A stretch of DNA of 40,773 nt, from positions 1 to 40,773 of the IMG/VR virus record IMGVR_UViG_3300030333_001235; one strand, written 5' to 3'. This document shows positions 456 through 36,910 of the stretch, piece after piece. The notes below the pieces were generated by a model, which ran no database searches, was not told the origin of the DNA, and was given only the letters and a program-made list of their open reading frames with translations. The DNA comes from a virus. The translations under genes and the position numbers were made by a program. The stretch's first letter is position 1. The number at the start of each line of letters is the position of its first letter.

Positions 456-477
456 TTTCTAGTAATTGCCTTCTTTT

Positions 478-485
478 TATTTATG
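478..485 (-). promoter_or_regulatory. T4-type late promoter CATAAATA upstream of gp8
   Basis: On the minus strand the sequence reads CATAAATA, which fits the NATAAATA form of the T4-like late -10 element recognised by the phage sigma gp55. It lies between the stop of the 613-residue gene and the gp8 ATG, 22 bases before the start codon. Similar elements at similar spacing precede other genes here. No transcript evidence is available. Confidence 0.65.
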
Positions 486-489
486 TGGG

Positions 490-2331: not shown

Positions 2332-2332
2332 A

Positions 2333-3835: not shown

Positions 3836-3843
3836 TATTTAGG
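3836..3843 (-). promoter_or_regulatory. Possible late promoter CCTAAATA overlapping the stop of the YHYH gene
   Basis: The minus strand reads ACC TAA ATA at the end of the 662-residue gene, so the stop codon TAA is part of a TAAATA element. It lies 21 bases before the ATG at 3814, the same spacing seen for the NATAAATA elements upstream of gp25 and of the 59-residue ORF. It differs from TATAAATA at the first two positions, so it is a weaker match. Confidence 0.45.
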
Positions 3844-5827: not shown

Positions 5828-5838
5828 CGTTTTACTTT

Positions 5839-5846
5839 TATTTAGA
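5839..5846 (-). promoter_or_regulatory. Possible late promoter TCTAAATA overlapping the giant gene's stop codon
   Basis: The giant gene ends GAC ATC TAA ATAAAAG. The string TCTAAATA is one mismatch from TATAAATA and overlaps the stop codon, as at the end of the next gene. It lies 11 bases before the ATG at 5827, closer than the 21-22 bases seen at other sites. Support is moderate to weak. Confidence 0.4.
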
Positions 5847-8800
5847 TGTCGTCGAAGATAATATTAGGTGTGAATCCAGTTAATACTGTAGCACCAGTCT
5901 GGACACTCAAGATTGCGGATAGTGAGTAGACAGGAGTTGCACCCGCAGCAGTTATAGCAACACGATACTCATCACCATCATCTGCCTGAGCAGCAGATAC
6001 TGTCTGATAGGTTGCTTGGTTAGCACCAATGATGTTGCTCCAAGTCTGTGTGCCATACTCCTTCTTCTGCCACTGATAATTCATTGTCTGACCGTTAGTT
6101 ACGGTAGAGACAACAGTGAATCCAGCAGTCTGACCTTGGTTAACAGTTACGTTAACTGGATCAATTACAATAGCAATTGTACCAGGATCGATTGTTGTAC
6201 CACCATCCTGATATTCGGATCCTTCGCCTGCGAGGACATCGAATCCACCGTTAATTGGACCACCGACAGGTTCTGTATAATCATCAGGTACCACGTTATC
6301 GATTGCTACTACTGGAGATGAATAACCAAGACCAGGAGTCTTAACGTCAATTCTAGTAATACCCATCAATGCCTTCAATCTAGCGTCAAATCCAGAAGAA
6401 GAGATAACGTCAACGTTAGGACGTGAAGTGTAACCGTCACCTGGGTTGGTGAGAATTGCGTTTGTTATCTGACCGTATGTAATCTCAGATATAGCAGCAG
6501 CATTTCTACCCTTAACAGATCCAGTGTATTCAAATGTGATTAGTGAGTTAGAAGACTCAATTAGAGCAACCTCACGAGCAAATTCCTCACCATCGATATC
6601 TAGTTTATCGCCAGCTTCAACTGGTGGGACAACTGTTGCTGCAATAACGTCTGCGTCAGATCCAATATATGAGAAACCAACAAATGTTGATCCCGCACGT
6701 GGGACTTCAGCGAAGATGATACGTGATCCAACGATCTCGTATGCGACTCCAGGTTCCTGAATAATACCGTTGAGTGAAACTAATATATTATTCTCAGGAC
6801 GTATAACGTTAGAGGATACACCTTCAGTCAATGTTAGTGAGTAGAATAATCCACCACGCTTAAGGTTGAATGAAGATCTCAATGAGTCAAACTCGAAGGA
6901 GATATCATCTAATTGACGTAACTTACCAACGTAGTAACCAATGAATTGTGATCCAACCTCAGGAGGCTCAGCGAACTGAATCTTATCTGAGAATGCAACG
7001 TATGATTGGTTACCACCAGGAGGTTGTAGGATACCGTTAACGAATGCTAATAGGTGACCAGCAGGGTCTGGGAAGTATGCCTGACCATTTGATATGGTTA
7101 GATCGAATATTGTTTGAGTACCATCAAATCCTCTGAAGTAACGATCAACTCTACCATCTAGTGTCCTAGCAGCAGAAATAGCAGCACTCCATCCAAAGTC
7201 AGATTCTATGGTCATATTGTCCATTAGATTTCCAACAGCATCCTCTACCCAGATGGTAGCAGTAATACCTTGTTGCTCAATTGCAACGACCTTAGCGTAT
7301 GATGAGTAAGTTGTCTCAGTGTATGATGTTACCTGTGCGTATATGGTTGGGAAGTTAGATCCAATCTCAACCTTACCAATGTTGTTTGTGCCAACAGTCA
7401 ATTCTGAAATAGGAGCACCAGCACCTACAGGTTGAATACTACCGATCCAAAGTTTGTGGATACCAGCATCAGTATCTAAAACATACTTGGTTACTACAGC
7501 AGTAAATCCTGGGTCTTTCTGTAATGTACCTTGTAGTAGTGAAACCTCATCACCAACTCTGAATGTATCTGTGATACCAGTATCAATGATAGCAGGACCA
7601 AGATTCAATTCTAATGTGTAACGACCATGTATATACTGGTTAAGTTGTAACTGTGTACCAGCAATACCCTTAATGTCTAAGATGTAGTCAGTAACACTAC
7701 CATAAATGATGTCGCCAGGTATCCAAGGAGCCTCAATGGTTTCAACGTCAATTGTAATTCTACCACCTTCGTTACCAGTTAGAGATCCAGACTTACTTAC
7801 ATACTCATCCATGTAACCTTCAGTTGCTGCTGATTTGGAGAAGAACCAATCACCTGTAGCAAAAGCACCTCTCTCAACGTTAATCAAGAATCTATCAGTT
7901 ATAGCAGTAACAGTAGATGTAGTGCCACTATCAGATCCTTCTAATATATCAGCAACGTTAATTGTTCCACTGATGGTATGAAGTTTCAGGAATGATATAG
8001 CAGTGTCAGCAGGTGCAGGTGTGCTTTGTAGCATTGTACCTGCATTAGATGTAGCACCTTGGACAACAACTTGCTCACCATTTGTGTAAGTATCAGACAC
8101 ACCAGGAGTTGTCTGTGATACACTACCAACATCAAAGTGCTTATAGATCTGACGTATAGATGCAACGTTCTCTTGGACTGTGCCTATCTCAGCAGCAGCA
8201 CCAGAGGTACCTCCATATATCACGTCAGCAGGATTCATTCCACCCTGTATAGGACATGCTGAATCATCAGTTGGGTATGTAGAAGCAGTTCTAGTAACAC
8301 CACTTCTTCTCACTACTGAGAATATTTGTGCACCATCATTAGAAGAATCTACTTGTAATGTTCTGAATCTTCCATCATGGATATATGAAGCACCAATTTC
8401 AAACCACTGAGCAGTAGCAGTTAGACAATAGAAGTATGTCTGACCTGTTAGACCTGTCAATGAAGTATCAGATGCTGGGATGTAACTCAATACATCACCA
8501 CGACGGAACTGGTTAGCACGGTTAATTCTTATTCTATATTCAGAGCGATCAAATCCAACTCTTACTTCAGGAGTTAGAGTAACTAGAGCAGGGTCAGTAT
8601 TATAATCCCAACCTGTTTCATATCTTGTTAGACGGTTAACAGCATCAGTGCTTGGTATCCACTGGACACTAGCATTTGTTGGGAATGATGACATCTCTAA
8701 AGCATACTCAATTGGGTTGAGTGAAGCATCAATCATAAATTCAACTGCTTCTTGATTCCACTCAAGTCTTGCTTCTGGAATGTATACATCGTAATTAGCT

Positions 8801-11800
8801 AACCATACTGGATCTTCAGTATGGAGATACATAACACTCTTAATATATTCTCTAACTCTGGTTAAGCAGAATAATAGATGAGATCTAGTTACGTTCTGGA
8901 ATGCTATGAAGTTACCTTCACCATCAAACCAATCTTGGGTCATTCTAAACGCACCAGCATTACCACCAGTTACCAAGTCATAACGCACTGCCTTCAGACA
9001 ATCCTCAGCAAATGTTATCGTTAGATTAGTAGTTGGATAGTTAGTTTGTGTGTCACTAAATGCTCTAGCAGCAATTGCTTGCTGGTTAAAGAGAATCATG
9101 TTAGCAATATTCTTACTATTATTCTCTCCACCACCTAAGGCATGAGTCATTAAATCATATAGAGTATCAATAGCAGATGTTACGTTATAGCAAGTACCTG
9201 ATTGATACTGAGTATTACTATTGAATGGGAAGGTCTTAGTTACACTATTAACAAGATAATTTGCTGAGTTATTAACTGCCTCATTAATAGTCTCGATGTA
9301 GATATCTAATAGAGTATCGATAGCAGATGCAGTCTCTTGGCAAGTTTGATTCCATGTGCCGTTAGCATCTTGTCCACCACCACTAAAGTCATAGGTAATA
9401 TCAAGATCTCTTACAACAACCTCAGGTGTATACTTAACAGGCCATATGATAGGCATATCATATGATCTACCAGCAACGTTATTAGGATTACTAATAGCGT
9501 CGGTAACCATTTGGACTAATTGTGTGATTTCATTCTCTACATTCTGTCCTTCATTACCTGTGTAATCATTGGATACTAGTCTATTTCTATAGTAATCAAG
9601 ATCACTTGTAGGCCATGCCCATGAATTTGCTTCTTGTACTTGTAATTTCTGACCATCAGCAAAGTCTGTTACACGAGGATATGTGTGGTTAGTAGCATTC
9701 TGGTCTTGAGAGCAAGTAAATGTTAGAGAATTGCTATCAATAGTAACAGTATCATCTGTTCTTAGAGTGTGTCCAACAACTGTCAGAGTTAATTGACCAG
9801 TAGTAGGCACATAGTATGCATCAGTAGGAGTAAATGTATCTCCAGTATTATTATTCTTGATGCAGTTAGCAAGAGCACTTACAAAGTTATGCTTATAATT
9901 ACCACCCTGTATCAATGCTCCAGTATTAGCACTTACAAATGTATGTTGATGTGTATCACCAGCTGGAGACTTACCAACGTTAACCATTATCATGCCATTC
10001 TGTACTCTAATACCACCTGTCTTACATGACTTGAAGGTATGAGATCCTATGAATGTTGATGGGACTCCAGAGAGTACTTGTATATCAAATGTATCAGTAG
10101 TTACATTAGATACTGCTAACCATTCATTACTTGCATGATCAGTAGGTCTTGGATATAAGTGAGTAGTTTCATGCTGATCAAGATCACATGAGAATCCTAA
10201 TGCATAGTCATCTATGTAAACATAATCATTTGCTTTCTCAATTCCACCTTCGTCAGCAGATACAAATGTATGAGTGTAACTACCACCACTGATAACAGCA
10301 CCAGGTACTGCACTTACAAATTGGTGATCATATTGATTATTAGATGCAGCAACATCAACATTAATTGTTATCTTACCACTTTGATGATGTAGTGAATTAT
10401 GCTTCGCAGAATCAAATGTATGAGTGTAGTTACCACCAGCAGTCACAGCACCAGATGTAGCAGAAGCAAATCTGTGTGTATAGTTACCAGCAACAGTCTC
10501 ACCAACATCAACAGTTATTGTTGAATTCTCCCAGTGGATTCCATCATTAACAGCACTTACAAATGCGTGTGTATATTCACCACCACCTCTTACAACACCT
10601 CTGATAACTGCACCATCTAGTGAAGATACCCATGTATGAGTTGTAGTGTTAGAAGAAGTACCAACGTTAATATCGAAATTATTACCAGATACGTTAGATA
10701 CAGTTAACCAAGAATTGTTAGATGCAGGGTCACTTACTCTTGGATAAGCATGATTTGATTGCCCACCATCTTCAGCACATGTGAAGGTGAATGATTCATT
10801 CTTAACTTGTACCTTATCTCCATTAGCAAATGGATGGTTAGGAATAGTTACTGTCAATACACCAGTTCCAGGTACGAAGTTAGCACCTGTTGGAGTGAAT
10901 GCATTTTCTGATCTTACAAATGTATGCTGAGTAGTGTTAGATGAAATACCAACGTTTACAGTAATAGTAGTATCAGTAGCAGATATAATAGGTACTGTTG
11001 TATCGTAGTATGGGTCATCAGCAGAAGCACCACCGTATCCATTAGGACGTGGATATCTATGCTCACTACCATTAGAGTCAGCAAGACACTTGAATACTAA
11101 TGATTTCTCTTCAATGAAGACTGACTCATGAGCAACCTTAACTCCATTAGGTGCAGCACTGTGGAAAGTATGTGCGTCAGTATTAGTAGAAGGTGCAGAT
11201 GCTAAGACCTGAATATCAAATGTATTTTGAGTTATGTTAGTAACTGGTACCCAAGTATTACTGATTGGGTCAGTTGATCTTGGATATGCCTTAATAGCAT
11301 CATTACCAGAAGCACCACCAAATCCACAACTGAATTGAATTGACTCATCAGTCATCATGATTCTATCACCTATGGTGAATCCATGATTAGCAATGGTGAG
11401 AGTCATAATACCTGTAGTAGGATTATAAGCACCATCAGTAACAGTATGTGTTGATCCACCTCTGAAGTTATGATTACCAATGGTCATTGTCATTTCACCA
11501 GTGGTAGGCTCATAGGTAGCAGCAGAAACTAGGTAGTTAGCACGAGGTGTCTTACCAACGTTAACATCAAAGTTATTACCAGATACGTTAGATACAGTTA
11601 ACCACTTATCATGTGCAGGGTCTGTTGCTCTTGGATAAGAATGATTAGTAGCATTACCATCCATGTCACAAGTCATGACTAATGAATTATCTGCTAACTT
11701 GATTCTATCTCCATTAGAGAATGGGTTATTAGTAACAGTAAGAGTTAATACACCTGTAGCAGCATTGAATGCAGCACCAGCAGCAGTATACTTAGCATGA

Positions 11801-26800: not shown

Positions 26801-29800
26801 TTATCTAATCCAGTAAGAGTATAAGATGCTCTCTTATCATGGAGTCTATCAAACTTGATTAAGGCAGAATCTGAATTACTTGTAGTAACAGGAATCTCTT
26901 CTGTTGGTAGTTGATATGCAGTATTGTATGGAGCAACATCATCTACTACAAAGTCATCAATCCATCCAATGAATGAATTACCACTTACAGGACCAGAATA
27001 CTTACCAGCAAGAGTTACATCAGCAACATTAATATCTGAAGTGCTTTGATAGTTACAAACTAAGTTTCCATTTAAGAATACTTCATACTGATACAATCCA
27101 AGAGACTCTTCTCTCTTCTGGAATGTTACATGGCACCATGCAGCACCACCAAATGTAGTCCAGTTAGTAGCAACAGCAGATGAAGCAACTTCTGTTGAAT
27201 TAACGTAAATAACGAATTTCTCAAAGTTACCACTTGTGCTATCACCATCCAATTCTACTTGAATGCTATCACCTGCAATAGGAGTTACATCAAAGAATAT
27301 TGGTTTGGTATTCTGTGCAGTATGTTGAGCAGTTGCTAAAGAGAACCATGCTCTATAACTCCACTCTTTAGTAGAAAGATTTAACCCAGGAAGTTTAATA
27401 GGGCAGATACCACTTAACTTAAGTGATCCAGCACCAAACTTCTGAATAGATGTGTCAATCCAAGCATTCGCAGTAGTATGGAATGTCATTGTTGCGAGAT
27501 CTTGCTTAGTAAAGTCATAATCTCTATCAGTATCATCATTAAAGCGATATGCTGCTAGTTGATCTGATTGTTGTCTATCTACAGCAAGAATGCAGTCTCC
27601 AGAGTTATCAACTGTATGCCACTTAGTCTGGAATCCAATTTCAGCAGTATCATCAACTTTAGTCTCTTTAATTACACTACCATCATACTTGAGATAATGA
27701 ATTACTGAATATCTTTGATTTTGAGATTCTATAACATCAGTAACTAATGTATAGTTACCAAACACGTCTAAACTGATTCCAGCGTGTTTGATGGAATCTA
27801 CGTTACCAGAAACTGTAACTGTCTTACTCCAAGTCCATGCAGTGTTAGCAGTTGCAACTGGGAACTTATTAATCTGTATTTTCTCCCATTTGGATGTAGC
27901 AGAGTTATAAACGTTCCAAATCAGGATAACATCGTCATAATTGTCAATAATGAATCTTGGGTCTCTTACATATCCACCAACGGTAGGAATCTGTCTAATC
28001 CAGTCAATTTCAATGTTTGCACCATCATAGAAGAATACACCAAAGATACAGTCATCATTTTGGTCATTTACACCAACAAACATGAATCTGTCATTTGAGA
28101 TCCACTTAATTTGGTGCATCTCTTCTGAATCATCAGCAGAAGCAAGTTTACGTTTTTCTACAAGATCACCATCAATGCTACACTGAATAACCCACATATC
28201 GTTAGGATCAGGTGAGTTACTATCAGTATAACCACAAAGGTAAATACGACCATCTTGGTCTAGGTCTAAATCTGTTACCCAGTCCCTTCTAGAAAGACCT
28301 GAGATACCTGCAATTGACTTCTGCCATAGTAAGACACCATCAGGTGCATTTGCATTATTAAATCCAGATTCATACTTACCTAACCAAACATCAGGATTAT
28401 ACTGTGAATTGTTAGGATCATAGCTTTGACCAACAACATATATGAGGTCATTCTCAGGAGTATCGTCAATATGCATCTTGACGAATTCTGCCTTCTTAGT
28501 GCCTCCATTAGTAGGGATTAAATCTCTCTCCCATATAAGTTGGCCTAAGTCATCAAACTTAGCAAGAATTGCTGACTGATCTCCATCTGGTTCAAGGACA
28601 CTACCACAAATGTAAGTATAACGTTGTGCAGTAGTTATTGAGTGATGTATAGTAACTTGACCAGTAGCTTCCTTATATTCAGTTAACCAATAACGAGTTT
28701 TCTTAAATTGTTGTGGATGTGATACTCTGATCTGTGGAGGATTATCAGCATCGTATCCATTACCAGAGTTAATGATATTAACATCATTAATCTGACCAGT
28801 CCCTTCTAATACAAGAGATAACTCAGCATCTTGTCCAGAAGCAGTAATTAACTCAAATGTAGGTGGAATATCAAGATTATATCCAGTACCTGCTTGAGTA
28901 ATATTAATTCTTTCAACACCAGCAACAACCTTAACTTTAAAGATCTTATTGGTGTTATCAATTACAGGACGAGAATTTACAATGATTTCGTCTTGCTGTC
29001 TTAATTCATGACCTTCAGCAGTGGTAATTACACCGTAAGGACGGTCACCAATTATCTCTTTCTGATAACCAATAATTCTTTGACCTTGTACAGATTCAAT
29101 AAGAGCAGATGCACCAAATCCACCAGTACCTTCATTATCGAAGAATACGGTATCATTGACCTGATAAGACTCACCTGGGTTCTCAACAACGAATCCATCT
29201 ATCTGAGCATTCTCAAATTGAGTAGTTGTCTCAACTTCAATATCAACCCTAGACTCAGCAGAGACCCTTGGGAAATAATCATATATCTGTAGAGTTGCCT
29301 CTTCAGACATCTCTAATACTTCTTGTTGCTCATTAGCATCAATCAAACCATCATTGTTAGAGTCTTGTATTTCAAAGATAATAGGATAACCTTCAATCTC
29401 AGTAGTAAAGACATCTGCCTCTTGGTTTGGTTGACGATCTACATCGATATCAACATCAGTATATGGATCTCTATAACGGACAACACCATCAGGAATATTC
29501 TCCTGTGTTGCTATCTGAGAGAAGTTCCAATCATCTGGAAGTGAGTTAAATTGAGGACCACAAATGTATGGATACTCTGGAAGACCTGCTTCACTAGCAT
29601 CAATAGTTACAAAGTAAGCATATGTGCCATCTGGATACTCTGGTGTCTTACAGAAACGACCATTATAGTTGTCTAGGTCACCAGACTGGAAATCGTAGTA
29701 ATAGTCATCTACAAAGGTACCAGCAGGGTATGTTGAAATAGGAGGACCATCTACCCTAGCAGGATCAGGATTGGTTATCTCATCATATACAACGTTTGTC

Positions 29801-32800
29801 TTTAATTTAAAGGAAGTACGCATCCTTCTGATACCACTATTTGCATCAGTAGGATCAATGTATCCATAAGGACCATATATTGGGTTACCATCAAACGCCC
29901 AACCAATAATAGGTGAGTGTTGGAAGTTAGATTCTAATTCTTTAAATGTCTGTGTTACAGGATCTAGGAATACGTTGTCACCAACAACATATCTCAATTC
30001 CTTAGGATCTGATAGGTGAGCATATTCACCACCAAACTGGTTGTTATATCCAGTGAATACATAACCTCTTGCATTATCAAATTTAGTGTCAAGATCATAT
30101 TCAAGGTTCTTATTCCACTGATACACAGTAGGTGTAAAGGTCGCTAATTGACCCACTGCTTCGAGTCTAACGGTGGTTAAACCTTGTGTATACCCAATAC
30201 CCTTGTTGGTGATAGTTATTCCTAATACACGACCTTTGTCTTCTCCAATCGTGCCAATAGTTGCTTTAGCAATAGCACCGAAACCATCACCATTAATGAT
30301 TACAGTAGGTGCAGTTGTATATGATTCACCAGAGTTAATAATAGCGATAGAAACTATTCTGCCATTAATAACGATTGGTTGTGCTAGAGCACCTTCACCA
30401 GAGTTAACCTTAATAGAAGGAAGTGAAGTATAACCACTACCAAAGTTTGTTACGTTAACACTCTGAATAGTACCTCTAACGTTAGCAGTTGCAGTAGCCC
30501 CACTACCGCCACCACCTGTGATGGATACTAAAGGTTGTGTAGTATAATCTTTACCTGGTTGCTCTACTAGAATTCTTGTTACTCTACCACCAGTAATAAC
30601 TGCCTGTGCAGTAGCACCGCTACCATTACCACCAACAATAGAAACTAATGGTGAAAATGTATATCCAGATCCCCCTTCAGTTACTTCAAAGGAGTCTAGA
30701 CTACCATTAACTACAACTTCAGCAGTAGCACCTGATCCACCACCACCTGTAATCTCTACATTAGGTTTAGCACCAGCATCATAGTTAACACCTGAATTAG
30801 TTACAGTGATAGATGTTAAAGGACCATATTGGACAAATTCTCTAGATTTGTAAGACCATATAGAAACACCATTAATCCAAGCACCAATAGGTGTTCCTGG
30901 ATCAACTGTCTTACGTTCTGAGATTGTCTGGACTGTTCTGGGGAATCTTAAGAGTTTCCTTTGGTTTCCTGGGATGAGAGCAGACCCAGTGAAAGGACCA
31001 ATCTTATAATTGGGTAGACCAGAAGCAGCAACATAAACATAGCTATCGTTGAAGAATGCATTCTGTATATTAGTAGTAAATTCACTAACAACCTTATTAA
31101 TGGAGTTAATATCAGATTTACCTCTGTTGAGGTCAACTGATAACAGGATATTACCACCAGGCACTATCTCTGTTGGTACTGCTATTTGATATGAGAATGT
31201 AAACTGGTCAATTCTTGATGTGACAGTGAATGTGCCGTTGTATACAACAGGGTTAGCACCGTATATTGTAACTTGATCAGATACCAGTAGACCATGAGGG
31301 TTGTCGCAGACTACAGTAGCAGTCTGGTTATTAACACCACCAGGATTAATACTAGTGACCTGAATCAGTTTCTTGACGTTATATAACCAAGATTGAAGTC
31401 TTAACTCTTCAGCAGTAGATCCAAGGTTTGCTACCTTTAGTTTATCTCCTTGAAGATAATATGACCCAGTATCATTAAGAACTGTTGTACCTGCTTCAGC
31501 GATACCTAACACTCTTAACTTACATTCTTCTGAGGTACCTCTATTAACGTAAACATAGATATCCGACTGGACTATAGTACCAGGATCCCAATCTTCAACG
31601 ATTCCATTCTTAGACCTAGTACACTCGATGAACTGGTTTAGGGACTTCTCCTTATACTGGACTTCCTCTTCATCATTGATTCTAATAGTACCATTTCTCT
31701 CGGGCCATCCAATTGTGCTGTCAACCGTGATTATCTGACCATCTGTAGAAAGAGGCTCAACAAGACGAGTTTTATAAGGAATAATGAAACTACCAACCAA
31801 GGTTTCTTCAGATATCGCCAACTCGTAGATAGTATCTGTTCCTTCAATGATGGTGATGACATTTTCGATAAGGGCAGATGCAGCAGTAACACTAGTGTCT
31901 ACTTCATCAGCATATTGGTTAATTTGTGAGTCAATAAGGTTGCTTGGATCACCTTCTATCAACTCTGCACGAAGAATAGTGTCCACAACCCAAGTAGCAT
32001 GGGATGGACTAATAATTTCGTCTTTTGGATAGTAAAGATCAACATCTTCTCCAAATAAGATCTTGAAAAGATATTGAGTTGCTAATTTAGTACCTTTTGA
32101 GATATAGAAGTCGGTAATATTCTTAATTACCTGAACTGGGTTAACTTTGGAGAAATCAATGTCCAAAGTAGGCAAATACTGCCTTCTAAACTTATCAAAG
32201 ACTTCTTTAATGAATAAAGAGTCTAAATTGGTTACATAAGACCCAGCTGGGTGATTTGACTGTCTTAGAGCTGCTTCTCCAGCATATATCTCATTATGAA
32301 GATTATCATAAGCAACAGGACCAGAAACACCTCTAGCACATCCTAAAAACGCACTAGGAGCATAACTTTCGCCTTCTTCGATAATATCGAATCCTGTAAC
32401 TTGATCAAACCCAACATCTACAGATGCACGTGCTGCACGAGGTTCTGCGATGTATATCTTCGGTGGAGACTCTTCTGAGTAACCAGTACCGAAATTAATG
32501 ATATTAATGTCTGTTATTTCGCCATTGAAGATAGTTGCTTGTGCTAAAGCACCAGTACCTCCAATTGGCACCCCATATCCGTCTTTTCTGTCATCTACGA
32601 TATAAACTGAAGGTGCATCGGTATATCCTTGTCCACCAGTCAACATTTCGATATTTGTGACTGATCCAGATGCTACAGTAACGTCTAAAACCTGAGCACC
32701 GATAGGATCGATTATTTTAGTCCTAGGAGGGGTTAAATACCCTCTACCACGGTTTGTAATCTGAATTTCGTAAACTTGACCATCCTGATTGATTTTAGAG

Positions 32801-34218
32801 ATTGCAGTGGCATTAATACCACCATCAGGAGCCTCATCAATATAAACTAGGGGAGGATTGCTATATCCACTACCCATTGAAGAAACAGTGATGCTATCGA
32901 TGTTTACACGACCTTCACTGTCAATTGTTGGTTGAGTTATGATTGCTCCACCAGGATTCTTAAATGAAATCGCAGGAATGAAGTCATAACCACTTCCACT
33001 GTTAGTAATGGTCAAACTATCGACCATTCCAGTGGTATCGTTAACTGTAAGAGTTATTTGTGCTGCTGTACCATTAGGATCACTTGGTTGTGCAACAACT
33101 GGGATTGGAGGGTTATATGAGTTGTATCCTTGTCCACCATCGATCAAATTGATGTCTTTAATACCACCAATCAAAGATCTAGCAGTTGCAGCTCTACCAT
33201 CGTTACTTGTGATAGCAACTTTAGGTGCAAAATCTAATCTATACTTAGATCCACCATTTTTAGGGATTAATGCCCCAATTGTGCCATCATTAGCAACCTT
33301 AGCAATTGCTGTTGCTCCTGAACCGTAAGAAGGAGCAATATATTCAACAGAACGAATATGAATGGCATCAGCAGCCCCAATCTCGTTTTTGAAGATAACT
33401 CTATCTTGGAAAACGGTAAAATCTTCATAAGGGACTTGTAAACGACCATTTTTGTTAATTATTAGTCCAATTTCCGAAGTTGGAGTGTATGAAGACCCAT
33501 TTACTCGTAATGGATACTCTTTTGTGTTTTGCCACTCTTGCCAAGGAATAGAATCGGTTACAGTGATGGTTTGATCGGAATATCCAACCAAATATGTCAA
33601 TCTAGTGAATTCTGAGTCATCAGCACCAGTCCTATCTCTAGGTGGTGTATCAAAACGTATATTAAACCCTTCAATGAAGTAATCTACGTTTGGTACCAAC
33701 ATTGTGTTGTAAGTAATCACAATGAGGTGCTCTGCTGAAGGAGGAGCGACTGGAGTACCTAAAAAGCTTAGTTGGAAGTTATTTTCAACACCATCGAACA
33801 GTGTAAAGGGGTTTTCTAGCTGTTGCTTCTTCTTATTAAACTGTGGGAAAGAGATCCCAGGAGTAATAATAACATCAGGACCACGAGTAACAGATTCATA
33901 GTAAATTACCTCATTATCAATCATCAAGGATCCATTTTGACGCTGGAATCCGTCAATTTCCTCAACTTCTATCTTTTTATCATCTAATCCAATTTCGTTC
34001 AGCAAACTAGTTGAACTTGACAACTCATCAGAGGTATAATTGTCAAGATCAAGGTATCTTAGTAAATTATTAAGTATATCGTAAGGACGACCTGTTTTCT
34101 CCTGAGACTTATAGTATTCAAACAAGAAATTGACCAACTGTCGGTCTTCCTGACGAATAAACTCAGGTAGCTGATTTTCGACCCTATCAGAGACGTTAAT
34201 ATTCTTCGTAATCGGCAT
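5842..34218 (-). CDS. Giant gp7-like baseplate wedge protein with adhesin modules (9458 aa)
   Basis: One uninterrupted frame encodes 9,458 residues (about 1 MDa). It starts at ATG 34218, five bases after the gp6 stop, in the T4 gene 7 slot. T4 gp7 (about 1,030 residues) starts wedge assembly and binds gp6, gp25 and gp53. Visible modules, with approximate residues, are: gp7-like helices LVNFLFEYYKSQEK (28-45) and YISKGTKLATQYLFKILF (about 703-720); GGxGY repeats (300-607, 1130-1353, 1670-1836, 3120-3303, 9247-9310); degenerate YHYH (1380-1545); propeller-like region (1858-2226); LamG-like folds (2233-2433, 4428-4612, 5265-5430); CBM-like modules (2657-2787); gp7-like NHPAGF (about 3543); Cys-x-Arg-Asp helical repeats (3959-5226, 8220-8510); YPR array (5461-8199); C-terminal Ig-like domain (about 9345-9458). 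No signal peptide or membrane segment is seen. That it is an expanded gp7 is inferred; the virion role rests on its neighbours. Confidence 0.93.
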   Translation of the reverse strand: MPITKNINVSDRVENQLPEFIRQEDRQLVNFLFEYYKSQEKTGRPYDILNNLLRYLDLDNYTSDELSSSTSLLNEIGLDDKKIEVEEIDGFQRQNGSLMIDNEVIYYESVTRGPDVIITPGISFPQFNKKKQQLENPFTLFDGVENNFQLSFLGTPVAPPSAEHLIVITYNTMLVPNVDYFIEGFNIRFDTPPRDRTGADDSEFTRLTYLVGYSDQTITVTDSIPWQEWQNTKEYPLRVNGSSYTPTSEIGLIINKNGRLQVPYEDFTVFQDRVIFKNEIGAADAIHIRSVEYIAPSYGSGATAIAKVANDGTIGALIPKNGGSKYRLDFAPKVAITSNDGRAATARSLIGGIKDINLIDGGQGYNSYNPPIPVVAQPSDPNGTAAQITLTVNDTTGMVDSLTITNSGSGYDFIPAISFKNPGGAIITQPTIDSEGRVNIDSITVSSMGSGYSNPPLVYIDEAPDGGINATAISKINQDGQVYEIQITNRGRGYLTPPRTKIIDPIGAQVLDVTVASGSVTNIEMLTGGQGYTDAPSVYIVDDRKDGYGVPIGGTGALAQATIFNGEITDINIINFGTGYSEESPPKIYIAEPRAARASVDVGFDQVTGFDIIEEGESYAPSAFLGCARGVSGPVAYDNLHNEIYAGEAALRQSNHPAGSYVTNLDSLFIKEVFDKFRRQYLPTLDIDFSKVNPVQVIKNITDFYISKGTKLATQYLFKILFGEDVDLYYPKDEIISPSHATWVVDTILRAELIEGDPSNLIDSQINQYADEVDTSVTAASALIENVITIIEGTDTIYELAISEETLVGSFIIPYKTRLVEPLSTDGQIITVDSTIGWPERNGTIRINDEEEVQYKEKSLNQFIECTRSKNGIVEDWDPGTIVQSDIYVYVNRGTSEECKLRVLGIAEAGTTVLNDTGSYYLQGDKLKVANLGSTAEELRLQSWLYNVKKLIQVTSINPGGVNNQTATVVCDNPHGLLVSDQVTIYGANPVVYNGTFTVTSRIDQFTFSYQIAVPTEIVPGGNILLSVDLNRGKSDINSINKVVSEFTTNIQNAFFNDSYVYVAASGLPNYKIGPFTGSALIPGNQRKLLRFPRTVQTISERKTVDPGTPIGAWINGVSIWSYKSREFVQYGPLTSITVTNSGVNYDAGAKPNVEITGGGGSGATAEVVVNGSLDSFEVTEGGSGYTFSPLVSIVGGNGSGATAQAVITGGRVTRILVEQPGKDYTTQPLVSITGGGGSGATATANVRGTIQSVNVTNFGSGYTSLPSIKVNSGEGALAQPIVINGRIVSIAIINSGESYTTAPTVIINGDGFGAIAKATIGTIGEDKGRVLGITITNKGIGYTQGLTTVRLEAVGQLATFTPTVYQWNKNLEYDLDTKFDNARGYVFTGYNNQFGGEYAHLSDPKELRYVVGDNVFLDPVTQTFKELESNFQHSPIIGWAFDGNPIYGPYGYIDPTDANSGIRRMRTSFKLKTNVVYDEITNPDPARVDGPPISTYPAGTFVDDYYYDFQSGDLDNYNGRFCKTPEYPDGTYAYFVTIDASEAGLPEYPYICGPQFNSLPDDWNFSQIATQENIPDGVVRYRDPYTDVDIDVDRQPNQEADVFTTEIEGYPIIFEIQDSNNDGLIDANEQQEVLEMSEEATLQIYDYFPRVSAESRVDIEVETTTQFENAQIDGFVVENPGESYQVNDTVFFDNEGTGGFGASALIESVQGQRIIGYQKEIIGDRPYGVITTAEGHELRQQDEIIVNSRPVIDNTNKIFKVKVVAGVERINITQAGTGYNLDIPPTFELITASGQDAELSLVLEGTGQINDVNIINSGNGYDADNPPQIRVSHPQQFKKTRYWLTEYKEATGQVTIHHSITTAQRYTYICGSVLEPDGDQSAILAKFDDLGQLIWERDLIPTNGGTKKAEFVKMHIDDTPENDLIYVVGQSYDPNNSQYNPDVWLGKYESGFNNANAPDGVLLWQKSIAGISGLSRRDWVTDLDLDQDGRIYLCGYTDSNSPDPNDMWVIQCSIDGDLVEKRKLASADDSEEMHQIKWISNDRFMFVGVNDQNDDCIFGVFFYDGANIEIDWIRQIPTVGGYVRDPRFIIDNYDDVILIWNVYNSATSKWEKIQINKFPVATANTAWTWSKTVTVSGNVDSIKHAGISLDVFGNYTLVTDVIESQNQRYSVIHYLKYDGSVIKETKVDDTAEIGFQTKWHTVDNSGDCILAVDRQQSDQLAAYRFNDDTDRDYDFTKQDLATMTFHTTANAWIDTSIQKFGAGSLKLSGICPIKLPGLNLSTKEWSYRAWFSLATAQHTAQNTKPIFFDVTPIAGDSIQVELDGDSTSGNFEKFVIYVNSTEVASSAVATNWTTFGGAAWCHVTFQKREESLGLYQYEVFLNGNLVCNYQSTSDINVADVTLAGKYSGPVSGNSFIGWIDDFVVDDVAPYNTAYQLPTEEIPVTTSNSDSALIKFDRLHDKRASYTLTGLDKWSTIEFSDIETATTWADLNISAFSPWELGAGGLQILDMSQVAATFIPGTYTFTTTKSEYATKTSTVPSPLGKTLQISADVISKFYIRDALYQKIDNVLEFTFNQDIKLTKGAIIQQFNSAGVTQAYGTIVKVPEGTLLNPGYGNKYQIGKMYGTFNDDDRFRTDVADVNQIEGQYFNIDEPENPWQAATVYAQGDRVYSDKKIYEALGAGTSGTIQPTHTAGQASDGVINWVFIDDAGKFTLDLTTHPYPMPQYQGSDMLEWDEGLLYVVGQRVRHKLNVYEVASGGAGVSGTTAPVHTTGDASDGSVTWTFVSTSEPISDYARNLGYDLGNNYTVQIIEIHPGSLYIPEDVISVNSGNITVAEDEKSVVIGGLASVKKIRVTARLEKDIIRTATNRTKYVYCTSNSAHNFTAGSIIFTEGFQGTQFNGSFFIDQVIGSREYTFGIRDTAVSDPAFNNNAINSVNIYAKHPTLEFTRNHQYVFDVSDTSNFGYYLSFSQDNQYKLEYSFNNIERSGTPGIPLGAGQYPFVKFSVLGDVTNISYYFDPSRTGSDSPVGPLSFIDVITTPFEGTFTVTEVPTDTSFKFQLLKEPERNNAEVGTDEFDQVYSYYSTTSTRAVGPINTIQLVSPGGFYQKLPIISDIASFRQIEKIVVVDGGTEYAPGVYYDVPVAGDGEGGKATITVEVDDEVGSGTITNAQVADPGKGYTIASIDIDAIPGILGQTLAGSGGAVNVVIPAEGTGASVFLTGGNIGKIKRLKNNEFGFGYSHDYTLKPEITFPVNLQLFNTSILSQIKITDPGAGYTSTPAVVIEGGAGYSSEPTVTLKSEFNYVVNLDLNYLQFNFPHGITTGAEVQFRSDDIGSTEGELPKPSTAGLTQLVAGQTYYAIAGEAAGLETDQLRFGLTLQSAQAGSYVTFLTQGSGRQTLLTEVFGGKATAVVETSRFLEGEEVFQGSAIETATAIGSVSTNTGWQIGPKILKIVDYTGDWAKGEKVTGVISKASGVIDNFSIARGVLNIGSLTKTPGRFIDDVGKPSEIVQKIQDSFFYQNFSYVVQSEIPITEWKTQVLENNHPAGFNMFGQLQLSGGKDVSGRKIGTEFTKKVNIQNYSNVNQITSFGAAQPIYTDYNNTEVLFRKKRLTSSEEILTSIVKKMDDISDQFDGIKKSFPITVEGETVIVKDNQLMITLNGIIQSPGVSYQIVGGNLVFSEPPKPPSKVNYRILGVTPTPIYRIALYDGFGGTNYGIFPTLGQQIQGQLSDVVATVIDSGTNHLDVINLVGGSFQLNEQIKRGELFAALVESVTLVNSPTIFRFGEGLTNLDGDTAYVEETNVDAEGVVNDRIVVSKTSGTPRFETGIFDFKLNEFIYSASSKIAGQITYIAPYSDPINEEVVDELIINKGTTFQGLLFERLVSLENPNVILDDISQSSITPTEINNSDERINADFLDFEQVRTTEITYSQVTGGQFTLGEVIRNKKVFYGNPISVFHGNAANRFLDAKRNISNNKQEIIDFAEAQIAIDHPDYYFPNDVITNSWSRFKDAYRLIQNNKAMIAGMAFDDMKTQYPSSSIPSDAKCKRDLEYMIDAISIDVFAGGNVYTRKFVQQFFTAEGVYQHVNAQSAETRFAFEKAKDRMKAAVANQYSGTINAVNSGDSWTGYQDLTITADPSPNDNYGTPGSNTNNADSQNCSDVQAAITTLWEFTDEALNNASLNDVPDETVGTYSPHQELCRRDLGYFIDAIANDLGSGGQYNTVEFTKKFFDAAGVPLTNGIAGEEAQAITAFQAARDLMYRAINNLMYWKDLSGVGYNLNDPTTYTGGVAPANTYDANYASGNNQDINNCANVKTYIGTLSDIATVAFNAGNLTNVNALTVTDGTFQDGETIRTTKIGYKNRSRGLFVIGDQIKGITSGALFEALGSNSGLKWIFAGNITGTFQQGEYITNSLLTATNCTQSVIVKKAELSGSKSIYVPSNAILKTPESLDFEFGTGDFTIESWIRPAANVGTQYLFDFRRLSSAQGLNIRMDGQAIKVYNGTTLGINSGNVVATTGTWYHLSVVRSSGVTQMYINGAQVGSNWADTNTYLYASASIGMDFNQTSHWAGHIDNLYIKKGTADHTTGFTAPTQVDYTEDNIVLGLDGEAPFILSTTEVYAEYSGSRSSNAAAKKVDYANLLTIIEDVDLGRQEFRDCADIIDLNGAWIAEEAVGRMKAAFSDFTIKGDVPAENSYGGTDKCIRDTKDYILGALVKDLREGGNYHTIYTARTYLTVGGELNFIGNEILQSLFTWNEVVKLAKDVITTTDTTLTGVYTTRLRIPNNFSSPAAANVQAEITTLGDDLLKVIAPNDQRFREGGFQLWKNRDYIAEETAGYIQNKYEKEINGTVYDFLEMPGFGQPYCERDIKDFIIPGVIADLVTGGTYQTQSVIDKYLDDQNNILNVEHELSAMMDAFEYAKMLSMKAINNLLMSPGETSANLTDNDGNALGLPAYVQEEYYSPVYTTRVAYRDSTIVLDTEGYPQANRSSNDRYLDAAESIWTNRHLIAKECVSIMNDLSKYENLQIPGGHVNCEDDVIDMIEALVHDIRFDCNEKTYDAAALYVETEDNSLKHIETEYEATITVVKILRDICTMVMRNAFGRDYVEGHEPDLKPVQTYEQNPRDDLFWKCGDAIDGNIRYIAEQAVAAGLQQYPGLLIPGGSINCVHDVTDILRSLVFNLKYGGNNWMQYASEFYTTYNGNLDHVTNASTETNWIINKAKEYAVRAMKGQVITNDAGHTVDQVIYDAVPRPVTSLFNSGTDGIQINQPNNIITRSFKFGEDKISTTDTGTGIVPTEDAVFRLVTKLPSSPIDCCLFEAGDSTAGIWVGIRDGGSYFRIRAGNGANSYSGGASYTSDTGLAMMDLQVSNLSSYFDNGDHEIVFEITIGGTVQVGPGAIKLWIDGNFISEVTTPGGQNTGLAGGGGIFASANYAGFGSSAGSIVAGESATVNTFTVNVGPAPTIAYNITDAKYDSSTGDLWLDVGSHNHTVGTYLKLVSNSINFTCDMDNHQSTHSYPRSGDPAGNTAIEVLKVGNTEHTASTAAYNPESGMMTITIADHGLTDSTTHTAKDAAYDPDSGVLQITCDDHGFKTGDQVKIHNGSLIFTCSQDNYATKHGYPRQKDPAGDQWLLVEEVTNKDVFKVNVGSTPRVEYNVSDADYNQVDGELTLDVGNHRFVGATHHVATYSEYDAAKGHLKLTVGGHKITKGEQIQITENSMTFTCSMDNHYTNHVYPRPTDPCVGKWLDVVESDIPGGTFTVDVGKSPIVGYNPTAATFNSETGALTLTIGSHSLAAGTHIKLAQGSLTFTCDMDDHHSHHSYPRPKDPVHNEPLPIVSTTSDSITVNVGITPKVEYDVSAASFDTSNGRLNLTTDRKFSFRDRSIHSVSGATYNGSTGLMRLTVANHNFANGDYVKLDDGAVTFTCDMDNNATNHAYPRASDPYSGKWMDVRNVSRDQFDVYVGKTPEIPFTVSDATYNPSNGTLILEIGEHDLVVGHNIKLTQDSVAFTCLLDNNVTTKTYPRSSGSAYIGNSGADPFYNKPITIQNVTATTIELNVGVSSDLTTHTFAPNVGLTPTAIDHNPVTGKMKISIPGHNLQNGDFIKIADNSLTFTCAMDLHATDHTYPRCHDPASGSWLKVENVTGNEFDVQVLTDIPQSNTTLHLFKSATPNCITTSVVKSGGVYNHTYVTSSANCLRHAGDSVRLKDDSLTFTCNMDGHSAQKTYPRAATTTHTPSDVKYDPNTGLLKFTVNNHGFLPHTYIKIADNSLAFSCKKDTHRFTPTDVDYNPTTGDMVLEFGVSHGLVPNQDMIKITPESITLTCDFNSDGNTTPKSYPRATGAATSTGRDYAYDTYLNITAVTSTSITVNVNGGQGAVTDTSVHNFVSASTDCITAIDVSSHSYPRPSDPVSGKWIMIQESSTHTFQVEVLDVIPSTHTSVHAFLSAATNCITHKKDFFYDTNIPIWDLGKTEHTATDIAYHPTEGKMTVTLANSFTPPNTYTPNTVTFYPATGILRVTQPGHPIHNGDKIFIRDESLTFRCDEDSQATDHLYPRSTDPVSGQWLKVFNRGINTYDVQVGNLFGQAAISNNTTHVCTNISAAAIWHAQDYVKFDENAITLSCTKDQNATNHTYPRRTDPTFDQWLPISNVSGTGFDVHVGKSGINDVYDHTFVSFASNGLKRQTGTITLDVGDGAISNSDAHTFISATSGALVGGGQYNHNFVASGQHASVTDASYNPTTGWMTLTVPNHGFMDGESIQIANNSLVFTCLQDSNATEHSYPRTSDPVSGEWIRIYNTTDDTFDVKVLDEVPSTNQTTHLFVRATANGITRAAIATGGDYDHKFVAPAKLTPTNASYNPTTGVMTLTVAKHGMKNGTRIMVDDGFVTFTCDQDGDQSNHAYPRATDPYSDEWMKVFNVTTDTFDVQVLFNIPSTNTTTHSFVSARPKSITVATLMKGNDSIKLAPNGLTFTCSMDGNSTDHSYPRLTDPAYNNSLRIVDDGVTRHSPTGATYTPSTGVLQLTVPNHGFANDDFIKLDDYALNLTCDMDNNSDNHAYPRGTDPISGKWVQISNVQTNSFEVNVGTTSAVSYTPTDADYTPTTGEMELNIGNHPLKVGQSVKIATGGIVLECDQDGYSSTNAYPRNIIDNFTPTNAVYSGETGYLTITSNGHGLDNGSLVKIDDNAITLRCTMDGSTNDKTYPRSSDPISGKWKAIENADTDTFDIFVGKSEFKSFDPQNVDYNPANGNMEITVGPDHGITTAHSVYINPLSMTFTCAQDNHQTDHAYPRPNGTGGATSDDPAYQDAVAVTAVTDSTITVNVNPSPSGASNHAHIFKPAVGKTPTAITYSGVSGVMTVTLNSHGMTTGEQIMFEDNSLIFTCGKDDHATEHAYPRHGDPASNRWLTITRIDDNRFTVKVLDITPSTNTSAHTFKRAKTGAIKRGTIRAGGSFTHTFQSFANNGLKAKRDRAYDHSIEIKKVGHAKYTAAGAAFNAATGVLTLTVTNNPFSNGDRIKLADNSLVMTCDMDGNATNHSYPRATDPAHDKWLTVSNVSGNNFDVNVGKTPRANYLVSAATYEPTTGEMTMTIGNHNFRGGSTHTVTDGAYNPTTGIMTLTIANHGFTIGDRIMMTDESIQFSCGFGGASGNDAIKAYPRSTDPISNTWVPVTNITQNTFDIQVLASAPSTNTDAHTFHSAAPNGVKVAHESVFIEEKSLVFKCLADSNGSEHRYPRPNGYGGASADDPYYDTTVPIISATDTTITVNVGISSNTTQHTFVRSENAFTPTGANFVPGTGVLTVTIPNHPFANGDKVQVKNESFTFTCAEDGGQSNHAYPRVSDPASNNSWLTVSNVSGNNFDINVGTSSNTTTHTWVSSLDGAVIRGVVRGGGEYTHAFVSAVNDGIHWENSTITVDVGETVAGNYTHRFASATSGAVTAGGNYTHTFDSAKHNSLHHQSGKITINVDVAASNNQYDHQFVSAVPGAVISGGSYTHTFVSADEGGIEKANDYVYIDDYALGFSCDLDQHETTHLYPRPTDHASNEWLAVSNVTTDTFDIQVLSGVPSTFIGSHTFKSCKTGGIRVQNGMIMVNVGKSPAGDTHQHTFVSANTGALIQGGNYKHNFVSALANCIKNNNTGDTFTPTDAYYVPTTGQLTLTVVGHTLRTDDTVTIDSNSLTFTCSQDQNATNHTYPRVTDFADGQKLQVQEANSWAWPTSDLDYYRNRLVSNDYTGNEGQNVENEITQLVQMVTDAISNPNNVAGRSYDMPIIWPVKYTPEVVVRDLDITYDFSGGGQDANGTWNQTCQETASAIDTLLDIYIETINEAVNNSANYLVNSVTKTFPFNSNTQYQSGTCYNVTSAIDTLYDLMTHALGGGENNSKNIANMILFNQQAIAARAFSDTQTNYPTTNLTITFAEDCLKAVRYDLVTGGNAGAFRMTQDWFDGEGNFIAFQNVTRSHLLFCLTRVREYIKSVMYLHTEDPVWLANYDVYIPEARLEWNQEAVEFMIDASLNPIEYALEMSSFPTNASVQWIPSTDAVNRLTRYETGWDYNTDPALVTLTPEVRVGFDRSEYRIRINRANQFRRGDVLSYIPASDTSLTGLTGQTYFYCLTATAQWFEIGASYIHDGRFRTLQVDSSNDGAQIFSVVRRSGVTRTASTYPTDDSACPIQGGMNPADVIYGGTSGAAAEIGTVQENVASIRQIYKHFDVGSVSQTTPGVSDTYTNGEQVVVQGATSNAGTMLQSTPAPADTAISFLKLHTISGTINVADILEGSDSGTTSTVTAITDRFLINVERGAFATGDWFFSKSAATEGYMDEYVSKSGSLTGNEGGRITIDVETIEAPWIPGDIIYGSVTDYILDIKGIAGTQLQLNQYIHGRYTLELNLGPAIIDTGITDTFRVGDEVSLLQGTLQKDPGFTAVVTKYVLDTDAGIHKLWIGSIQPVGAGAPISELTVGTNNIGKVEIGSNFPTIYAQVTSYTETTYSSYAKVVAIEQQGITATIWVEDAVGNLMDNMTIESDFGWSAAISAARTLDGRVDRYFRGFDGTQTIFDLTISNGQAYFPDPAGHLLAFVNGILQPPGGNQSYVAFSDKIQFAEPPEVGSQFIGYYVGKLRQLDDISFEFDSLRSSFNLKRGGLFYSLTLTEGVSSNVIRPENNILVSLNGIIQEPGVAYEIVGSRIIFAEVPRAGSTFVGFSYIGSDADVIAATVVPPVEAGDKLDIDGEEFAREVALIESSNSLITFEYTGSVKGRNAAAISEITYGQITNAILTNPGDGYTSRPNVDVISSSGFDARLKALMGITRIDVKTPGLGYSSPVVAIDNVVPDDYTEPVGGPINGGFDVLAGEGSEYQDGGTTIDPGTIAIVIDPVNVTVNQGQTAGFTVVSTVTNGQTMNYQWQKKEYGTQTWSNIIGANQATYQTVSAAQADDGDEYRVAITAAGATPVYSLSAILSVQTGATVLTGFTPNIIFDDI
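8690..9565 (-). other. Second helical segment of the giant protein, C-terminal to the YPR array
   Basis: This is a domain inside the giant gene, residues about 8220-8510. It is predominantly helical by eye (VENEITQLVQMVTDAI, ASAIDTLLDIYIETINEAV, LFCLTRVREYIKSVMY) and contains one more copy of the C-x3-RYDLVTGGN unit near residues 8407-8431. The unit is of the same family as the six copies before the array, so the array and the third LamG-like domain appear to lie within one helical-repeat region. Confidence 0.6.
10679..10710 (-). repeat. 32-base perfect direct repeat, copy 1
   Basis: Bases 10679-10710 are identical to 11573-11604. Both encode the strand and turn NVSGNNF that closes a YPR unit, preceded by a W-L-x-V-S segment. 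Identity at this length in otherwise diverged repeats suggests recent duplication or gene conversion. Confidence 0.8.
11573..11604 (-). repeat. 32-base perfect direct repeat, copy 2
   Basis: This is the second copy of the repeat at 10679-10710, 894 bases away and in the same orientation and frame, so recombination between the two would remove 298 residues and keep the frame open. Confidence 0.8.
17925..18425 (-). other. LamG-like domain 3 of the giant protein
   Basis: This is a domain inside the giant gene, residues about 5265-5430. Features of a concanavalin-A-like jelly roll are FRLVTKLPS, GIWVGIRDGGSYFRIRAG, GDHEIVFEI, and IKLWIDGNFISEV before a Gly-rich stretch. It sits immediately N-terminal to the YPR array. 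Assignment is by pattern only and less clear than LamG-like domain 2. Confidence 0.55.
18540..22345 (-). repeat. Cys-x-Arg-Asp helical repeats in the giant protein (six copies)
   Basis: Residues about 3959-5226 contain a helical unit whose core reads C-x-R-D-x-x-[YD]-x-I-x-A-[LI]-x-x-D-x-x-x-G-G-N. Examples are CKRDLEYMIDAISIDVF, CRRDLGYFIDAIANDL, CIRDTKDYILGALVKDL, CERDIKDFIIPGVIADL, CEDDVIDMIEALVHDI and CVHDVTDILRSLVFNL. Between cores are helices of the type AxxxFxxAKDRMKAAV or AKMLSMKAINNLL. LamG-like domain 2 interrupts the series between copies 2 and 3. I recall such units in other marine T4-like structural proteins; no function is known to me. Confidence 0.7.
20385..20935 (-). other. 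LamG-like (concanavalin-A-like) domain 2 of the giant protein
   Basis: This is a domain inside the giant gene, residues about 4428-4612. It is a textbook LamG/LamGL pattern: SKSIYVPSN, FGTGDFTIESWIRP, YLFDFRR, IKVYNGTTLG, GTWYHLSVVRSSGVTQMYING, SIGMDF, and HIDNLYIKKG. Such folds usually bind carbohydrate or protein ligands. The ligand here is unknown. Confidence 0.75.
25860..26250 (-). other. Two CBM-like modules in the giant protein
   Basis: Two tandem modules of about 50 residues lie at residues about 2657-2787. Each follows W-x-x-x-x-x-Y-x-x-G-[DQ]-x-V, then Y-E-x-x-G-x-G-x-S-G-T-x-x-P-x-H-T-x-G-x-x-SDG-x-x-x-W-x-F. The spacing of Trp, Tyr and Gly resembles small chitin-binding-type carbohydrate modules that recur in phage tail proteins. 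Sugar binding is inferred. Confidence 0.55.
26920..27520 (-). other. LamG-like domain 1 of the giant protein
   Basis: Residues about 2233-2433 follow the LamG pattern: FGAGSLKLSG, LSTKEWSYRAWFSL, FFDVTPIAGDSIQVELDG, AWCHVTFQKR, YEVFLNGNLV, VTLAGKY, and FIGWIDDFVVDD. It directly follows the propeller-like region. Confidence 0.65.
27540..28645 (-). other. Beta-propeller-like region of the giant protein
   Basis: Residues about 1858-2226 hold repeated blades with the feel of SBBP or related propellers: YTYICGSV, AILAKFDDLGQLIWERDL, DLIYVVGQSY, DVWLGKYE, DLDLDQDGRIYLCGYTDS, MWVIQCSIDGDLVEKR, DRFMFVGVND, GNYTLVTDV and DCILAVDR. The pattern G-x-[IL]-Y-[LV]-x-G-[QY] recurs about every 50-60 residues. 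A propeller fold is inferred. Confidence 0.6.
29590..30040 (-). other. Degenerate YHYH domain in the giant protein
   Basis: Residues about 1393-1543 match the YHYH domain of the next gene: IIGWAFDGNPIYGPYGY versus IIGIAFDGFPIYGPYAY, PAGTFVDDYYYD versus PAGTLMEDYEYV, and NGRFCKTPEYPDGTYAYF versus NGRFCITPEYPDGTYAYF. The giant copy lacks the YHYH tetrad itself (YAHLSDP in the corresponding region), so the core is retained without the namesake residues. Confidence 0.75.
30160..30830 (-). repeat. GGxGY beta-repeats of the giant protein, set 2
   Basis: Residues about 1130-1353 contain successive units such as VTNSGVNYDAGAKPNVEI, GGGGSGATAEVVVNG, TEGGSGYTFSPLVSI, GGNGSGATAQAVITGG, TNFGSGYTSLPSIKV and INSGESYTTAPTVIING. 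They match the repeats in the 613-residue protein and in the right-edge protein. A related set 1 lies at 32400-33330 in the same gene. Confidence 0.75.
32400..33330 (-). repeat. GGxGY beta-repeats of the giant protein, set 1
   Basis: Residues about 297-607 hold units such as GSGATAIAKV, IDGGQGYNSYNPPIPV, TNSGSGYDFIPAISF, SSMGSGYSNPPLVYI, TNRGRGYLTPPRTKI, LTGGQGYTDAPSVYI and NFGTGYSEESPPKIYI. They lie between the two N-terminal gp7-like segments, suggesting insertion into that domain. Confidence 0.75.
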
Positions 34219-36345: not shown

Positions 36346-36759
36346 TTACGCTCTCTCTAGGAGAAATTCGACGTTTTGGGTTTCTGATTCACCCACAATG
36401 GTATAATCTATACCTATTTGGACTGAATTGATCTCAGAATCATCACGAAGTGCGACACCTGTTACTACAATACGAGGTTCAAGTCTAGCTAGACAGTTGT
36501 AAATTTCACTTTTTATGGTATCTACTGCAAAAGGATCCCAAGGTTCAAACAAAAGTGCCTTAACTTTAGATCCAATGCTTCTTTGAAAGGGTCTTTCACC
36601 GAACATTGTCAGAATTAGGTTACGAACTGACTGCTTTATAGCATTCTCATTCTTAACCACACCAAAATCACCAGTATTAGGATTCGCTTTAAAAGACACA
36701 GCTAAGTCCTTGAATCCTCTACTGACATATTTTTCTGATCTGAACCTGTAGGTGGGCAT
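36346..36759 (-). CDS. 25: Baseplate wedge subunit gp25 (GPW/gp25 family, 137 aa)
   Basis: gp25 is a small lysozyme-fold-like wedge protein that joins gp6 and gp53 near the hub and helps start sheath assembly. Its length is typical of the family (T4 gp25 about 132 residues). Recognisable elements are FKANPNTGDFGVVKNENAIKQ, SVRNLILTMFGERPFQRSIGSKV, LLFEPWDPFAVDTIKSEI and EPRIVVTGVAL. ERPFxxxxGS is the usual family motif. The ATG at 36759 is preceded by GATAAATA (36788-36781) at 21 bases. The gene start lies inside the end of a probable 59-residue ORF in another frame, and TAA-A-ATG joins it to gp6. Confidence 0.95.
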   Translation of the reverse strand: MPTYRFRSEKYVSRGFKDLAVSFKANPNTGDFGVVKNENAIKQSVRNLILTMFGERPFQRSIGSKVKALLFEPWDPFAVDTIKSEIYNCLARLEPRIVVTGVALRDDSEINSVQIGIDYTIVGESETQNVEFLLERA

Positions 36760-36902: not shown

Positions 36903-36910
36903 TATTTATA
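36903..36910 (-). promoter_or_regulatory. Late promoter TATAAATA, perfect consensus
   Basis: TATAAATA on the minus strand lies in the 40-base gap after the 45-residue basic gene, 21 bases before ATG 36881. It is the best-placed late promoter in the window and probably drives the 59-residue ORF, gp25, gp6 and the giant gene. No hairpin terminator was seen in the same gap. Confidence 0.75.

Follow-up and report, generated by a model that had tools for sequence, protein, structure and literature searches.

The window analysed here, a linear 40,773-bp IMG/VR record that is itself a fragment, carries a gene that probably encodes the gp7 orthologue (baseplate wedge initiator) of a T4-like marine cyanophage, grown to about nine times the length of T4 gp7 through added modules that would serve as host-touching arms. 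At 28.4 kb (5842..34218, minus strand), it is one of the longest phage genes; in 2016, one of 14.3 kb was described as the second largest (PMC5062602). The gene is one stop-free frame with an ATG start and a single terminal stop, and its 9,458 codons specify 9,458 residues with a computed mass of 1,029 kDa (1.03 MDa) and a pI of 4.7. Both the uninterrupted frame and the mass of about 1 MDa were claimed in the original prediction and stand. When 50 sequences were generated from a first-order Markov model of the window, the longest stop-free run over three frames of each was 255 codons, which excludes a chance origin of the 9,458-codon frame. In addition, the codon-position GC structure (~0.49/0.42/0.24) is maintained along the whole frame.

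Within a T4-type baseplate cluster, the giant gene comes immediately behind gp6, its start falling five bases past the end of that gene. On the minus strand, a long structural-type gene, a PAAR gene, gp25 (36346..36759; PF04965) and gp6 (34224..36344; phrog_219 and the Pfam Gp6 domains) precede it. It is followed on the same strand by a YHYH + Ig-like virion protein recognized by domain matches (3839..5827), a gp9/gp10-like baseplate protein (2333..3814; PF07880), an unnamed conserved structural-type protein (490..2331; phrog_22827) and the N-terminal part of gp8 (3..455; ORF and domain match), which is truncated by the contig end. The location given in the original prediction, with gp6 on one side and the genes towards gp8 on the other, is thus correct. 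The slot order gp25-gp6-X-...-gp8 is also found in cultured cyanophages, and the order in T4 is gp6-gp7-gp8. The virion protein at 3839-5827 echoes the modules of the giant with its YHYH domain (PF14240, E 3e-38) and C-terminal Ig-like domain. At the position of 490-2331, the cultured phage S-SZBM1 encodes a 615-aa protein (S-SZBM1_205) that is likewise labelled "baseplate wedge initiator". The PAAR-type gene (37076-37609, minus strand; phrog_281) is just upstream of gp25, and the large structural-type ORF beyond it (37609-40773, minus strand; at least 1,054 aa, phrog_22792) weakly resembles baseplate-wedge proteins and is cut by the end of the contig. A T4-type late promoter sequence, TATAAATA, occurs at 36903-36910 (minus strand) in the gap upstream of gp25; its count in the whole window is not above chance. 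Neither Rfam matches nor tRNA genes were found in the window.

The relationship with gp7 was examined using a core profile, which covers the gp7 core-helix stretch of the giant in eight phages, T4 not included. Among all PDB sequences, this profile matches only gp7 (5hx2/5iv5, E 3.4e-5; a second gp7, 9f4a, E 5.2e-5), the next match having an E of 1.2, and in the T4 genome it finds gene 7 alone (E 5.8e-8). At E<=0.01, its matches in 11 genomes are confined to the slot ORF of each, T4 gene 7 included; eight of the 11 supplied, or are near, the rows of the profile, and T4 is the independent test. Beyond these, the genomes yielded a single match (E 0.018), to a stop-containing fragment of 66 codons in S-PM2. 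A profile-profile comparison of the core-helix stretch with T4 gp7 gave an E of 1.2e-8. As a control, we cut the family alignment into 156 overlapping windows and compared each with the profile of T4 gp7. The top two were aa 700-729 (E 6e-7) and aa 3527-3557 (E 1e-5), in the same order as in gp7, and the next best were one overlapping aa 700-729 (E 2e-4) and otherwise 5e-4. The core-helix motif is homologous to T4 gp7 aa 728-758, while the second motif, of ~31 residues, is colinear with gp7 and corresponds to about T4 aa 865-896; ~30 residues are aligned in each of the gp7 matches. The first core helix (aa 16-60) is matched to T4 by position only, its profile similarity not being significant. 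By tblastn with the N-terminal 770 residues, S-PM2, S-SM2, Caulobacter Cr30 and Sinorhizobium phiN3 match around aa 620-768. The first helix directly adjoins the core helices in Cr30 (767 aa); in the giant, ~600 residues separate the two. PDB searches with the N-terminal protein or profile, not narrowed to the core, gave no meaningful match, and an AlphaFold model of aa 1-770 with 32 close homologues had a mean pLDDT of 39.6, too low for a fold to be read from it. The gp7 reading of the original prediction is supported by the core profile, in both the PDB and the T4 genome, and by the second motif in order: at the sequence level, the giant appears homologous to gp7, and not merely placed in its slot. 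On this view, insertions of ~600 and ~2,700 residues would have split the gp7 scaffold, so that its C-terminal core motif follows the core helices at a distance of ~2,800 residues, and a further ~5,900 residues would have been added behind that motif.

The giant is the long end of a family that is already in databases and is little discussed. It matches PHROG 701 along its whole length, at profile positions 3-3339 and 5348-6121. The uniqueness implied by the original prediction does not hold: the family has many members, and in cultured cyanophages versions of 6,619-8,573 aa exist, one of which was seen in virions (PMC9146016). The proteins in this slot form a length series, from Cr30 (767 aa), phiN3 (1,006), T4 (1,032), S-PM2 (3,048) and S-SM2 (4,156), through the cultured relatives S-SZBM1 (6,619), S-WAM1 (6,737), ACG-2014d (6,817), P-TIM40 (7,351) and P-RSM6 (8,573), to IMG/VR versions of up to 9,922 aa. 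The S-SZBM1 orthologue (724 kDa) was detected with 71 peptides, at 13.5% coverage, by mass spectrometry of CsCl-purified virions (PMC9146016). A related 199-kb contig with a 9,914-aa version (G011) has a Photo_RC gene (PF00124), which fits a cyanophage. The filing of PHROG 701 under "head and packaging" is at odds with the location of its members in the baseplate cluster.

What, then, does the added length contain? All of the following segments are on the minus strand. The first core helix segment (aa 16-60; 34039..34173), contiguous with the other core helices in Cr30, is followed by the first insertion (aa 61-655; 32254..34038), which alignment and self-comparison show to be beta-rich with GxGYxxPP-type repeats, and by the gp7 core helices (aa 656-760; 31939..32253) with the motif DFYxSKGTxxxxxYLFKiLfGE, identified by the profile searches. 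Next come a YHYH domain (aa 1394-1541; 29596..30039; Pfam PF14240, E 2.4e-30), a weak beta-propeller (SBBP/delta-60-like) repeat (aa 1974-2001; 28216..28299; PF06739, E 1.4e-4, 22.2 bits against a cut-off of 20.5, with a TIGR02608 match that is also weak) and a LamG/concanavalin-like domain below the curated cut-off (aa 2274-2425; 26944..27399; PF13385, E 4.4e-5). The gp7 C-terminal core motif found by profile comparison (aa 3505-3560; 23539..23706) contains ...SEIPITEWKTQVLENNHPAGFNMFG... and precedes helical-looking repeats of ~120 aa (roughly aa 3960-5200; 18619..22341). These repeats carry the motif CxxDxxxxxxxxxxDlxxGGN, as read from the sequence, and are interrupted by a LamG/concanavalin-like lectin domain (aa 4452-4576; 20491..20865; PF13385, E 1.3e-17). 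They were detected by self-comparison in tiles, a whole-protein self-BLAST having given the identity match alone. A Pfam phycobilisome match (E 1.8e-5), which we take as chance, overlaps these helical-looking repeats at aa 4011-4114. Finally, an array of 81-aa all-beta repeats (aa 5462-8208; 9595..17835) was found by profile and motif count, with ~26-29 copies, and a weak Ig-like (Hoc-like) domain lies near the C terminus (aa 9343-9428; 5935..6192; phrog_4069, E 7e-4).

The array distinguishes the lineage of the giant, which has 26-31 copies of the 81-residue beta repeat in one slot, as counted from the sequences. The family alignment comprises a chassis of ~6,400 residues, common to all close relatives, and the slot at aa 5210-8260, which holds 3,030-3,486 residues in the long lineage versus ~95-320 in array-less relatives. 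The repeat has the consensus LTPTAATYNPTTGVLTLTVANHGLKAGDSIKIADNSLTFTCDKDGNATNHTYPRSTDPASNKWLEISNVTSDTFTVNVGKS, and its YPR motif occurs 26 times in the window. With the repeat profile, the twelve long proteins have 27-31 matches, some of them partial; P-RSM6 has 20, others have 1-8, and S-WAM1, S-SZBM1 and another IMG/VR relative (G020) have none. In a tree of the chassis, the twelve long proteins fall on one side of a supported split and P-RSM6 on the other, and the P-RSM6 expansion looks separate, since its repeats also lie at other places. The units within the array of the window are on average 37% identical to each other, while the best-matching units in long relatives are ~70-90% identical, mostly in the same order. 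The array is therefore old and stable, rather than a recent duplication. AlphaFold, run on three to four repeat units with 45 sequences, models the beta domains confidently (mean pLDDT 81) but leaves their placement relative to each other uncertain (pTM 0.41), which is what a bead-string arrangement should give. Models of this kind also exist for other cyanophage proteins, whose annotations read long tail fibre, tail protein or baseplate wedge initiator. In a search of PDB structures with the repeat fold, nothing reached E<=0.001; the top matches, to plexin IPT domains (E 2e-3) and to the endosialidase of phage phi92 (prob 0.66), are too weak for a fold to be named, and PDB sequence matches to a designed protein (E 3e-4) and an iota-carbonic anhydrase (E 0.009) look like chance.

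Based on these features, we propose that the gp7 core takes the place it has in T4, beside gp6 and gp25 in the wedge (in six copies if T4-like), with the insertions and the tail extending outwards from it as long arms that resemble strings of beads. The arms would touch host surface glycans, thereby sharing the work of long tail fibres, and their binding would be passed to the wedge that triggers contraction. Such adhesion by lectin-like arms is suggested by the domain names and by the missing tail fibres: long tail fibres are reported absent from S-SZBM1, S-WAM1, P-RSM6 and P-TIM40 (PMC9146016), which fits arms built into the baseplate. The array would lengthen the arms rather than replace the fibres, since array-less members, such as S-SZBM1, are also without long tail fibres.

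The giant may instead be a real gp7-type wedge part whose extra mass is structural packing, in a second baseplate layer or a skirt, and not a host-binding arm. This is the alternative that survives best, and we hold it to be possible, though on the unlikely side. Most of the extra length belongs to the chassis shared by all close relatives, and beta-bead arrays are also common spacers. However, the YHYH and LamG domains favour host contact, and the repeat recurs in proteins annotated as tail fibres. Moreover, the copy number of the array varies strongly among relatives, which a packed layer would not allow.

Is the giant chain assembled whole? In the boldest form of the arm model, an intact chain of at least 1 MDa, with about six per virion, would extend ~100-nm bead-string arms from the wedge core and combine receptor binding and the contraction trigger in one molecule. 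The arm length is our own arithmetic (26-29 beads of ~4 nm each), and the combination as a whole is tentative and rather doubtful. If it is true, the array copy number would set the reach or host range in an abundant ocean phage group. The opposite case, in which one polypeptide is made and then cut into several virion proteins so that no 1-MDa chain is assembled, seems improbable to us. The partial mass-spectrometric coverage of the S-SZBM1 orthologue (PMC9146016) is compatible with cutting, and very long chains are presumably hard to fold and keep whole. On the other hand, domain searches found no protease domain in the giant gene, no obvious unconserved junction exists outside the array, and T4 gp7 is listed as an intact monomer of 119 kDa (PMC3004832).

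Cyano- and pelagimyophages have been stated to lack T4 gp7, which is apparently substituted by VrlC (PMC7029224). The slot protein could accordingly be an unrelated VrlC-type protein that replaced gp7, and the N-terminal 1,000 aa, searched as a whole stretch, indeed showed no similarity to T4. We consider this very unlikely. The VrlC-type proteins (S-PM2p087 and phiN3 gp103) resemble the giant in being large and in belonging to the same baseplate operon, but they have their own genes downstream, after gp8 in S-PM2, in phages that also possess the slot protein. In S-PM2 and phiN3, the slot gene is thus not the VrlC-type gene, and it is the slot ORF, not VrlC, that the gp7 core profile picks out; among PDB sequences, this profile matches gp7 alone. 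This suggests that gp7 was not lost in cyanophages, contrary to the literature, but is hidden in an oversized protein.

The giant frame is conserved, and its sequence is under purifying selection end to end. Among 22 IMG/VR contigs searched that hold the N-terminal part of the giant, 11 carry an unbroken gp7-slot frame that measures 9,461-9,922 aa, and others have frames of 6,742-7,476 aa. Two of the 11 (G009 and G011) are nearly identical to each other. Two contigs of one other sample match the giant gene at 99.98% and meet inside it, and the meeting point is crossed by three further contigs; the other covering contigs match at 90-93%. The dN/dS ratio is 0.06-0.25 in 20 of 20 segments against the nearest relative (G001, 9,489 aa) and 0.09-0.42 against two more distant relatives, and these low values in all segments indicate that the entire length is selected as protein. 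An assembly artefact joining several genes by collapse or chimerism, which was named as a refutation of the original prediction and to which a single metagenomic fragment and the break in the assembly of the other sample might point, is rejected on account of the independent intact contigs, the three that span the break, the 6.6-8.6 kaa versions in cultured phage genomes and the purifying selection throughout. Four more IMG/VR records (G026, G038, G039 and G043) have gp7-slot frames of 9,131-9,580 aa. In the N-terminal 770 residues, one of them is 82% identical to the window and the other three are only 42-60% identical, which indicates that very long versions are widespread.

The giant shows how so long a gene came about: an ancient contractile-tail part was apparently split and extended by modules, and a repeat array makes its length differ among relatives. 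The reading as a hidden gp7 helps annotation and makes the question of the missing tail fibres testable.

Compared with T4 gp7 (PDB 5hx2 and 5iv5), the giant shares the slot beside gp6 and the core-helix and C-terminal core motifs in the same order. T4 gp7, an intact monomer present in six copies in the wedge, binds gp10, gp8 and gp6 in order (PMC3004832). It differs in its length of 1,032 aa, in the location of its core near the C terminus, after ~680 other residues, and in that no lectin-like modules or repeat array were found in it. The PHROG 701 profile is shorter than the giant, with 6,136 positions. The S-SZBM1 baseplate wedge initiator (S-SZBM1_208; PMC9146016), a virion protein, shares the slot and the chassis, but has 6,619 aa without any repeat copy. 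The closest parallels from cultured Prochlorococcus phages are P-RSM6 CPXG_00128 and P-TIM40 PTIM40_99, which occupy the same slot. In the N- and C-terminal thousand residues, P-TIM40 is 60-65% and P-RSM6 54-59% identical to the giant. P-TIM40 (7,351 aa) contains about five and P-RSM6 (8,573 aa) ~19-20 copies of the 81-aa repeat of the giant, partly in other slots, those of P-RSM6 lying at aa 4456-5015, 5785-6125 and 6352-7320.
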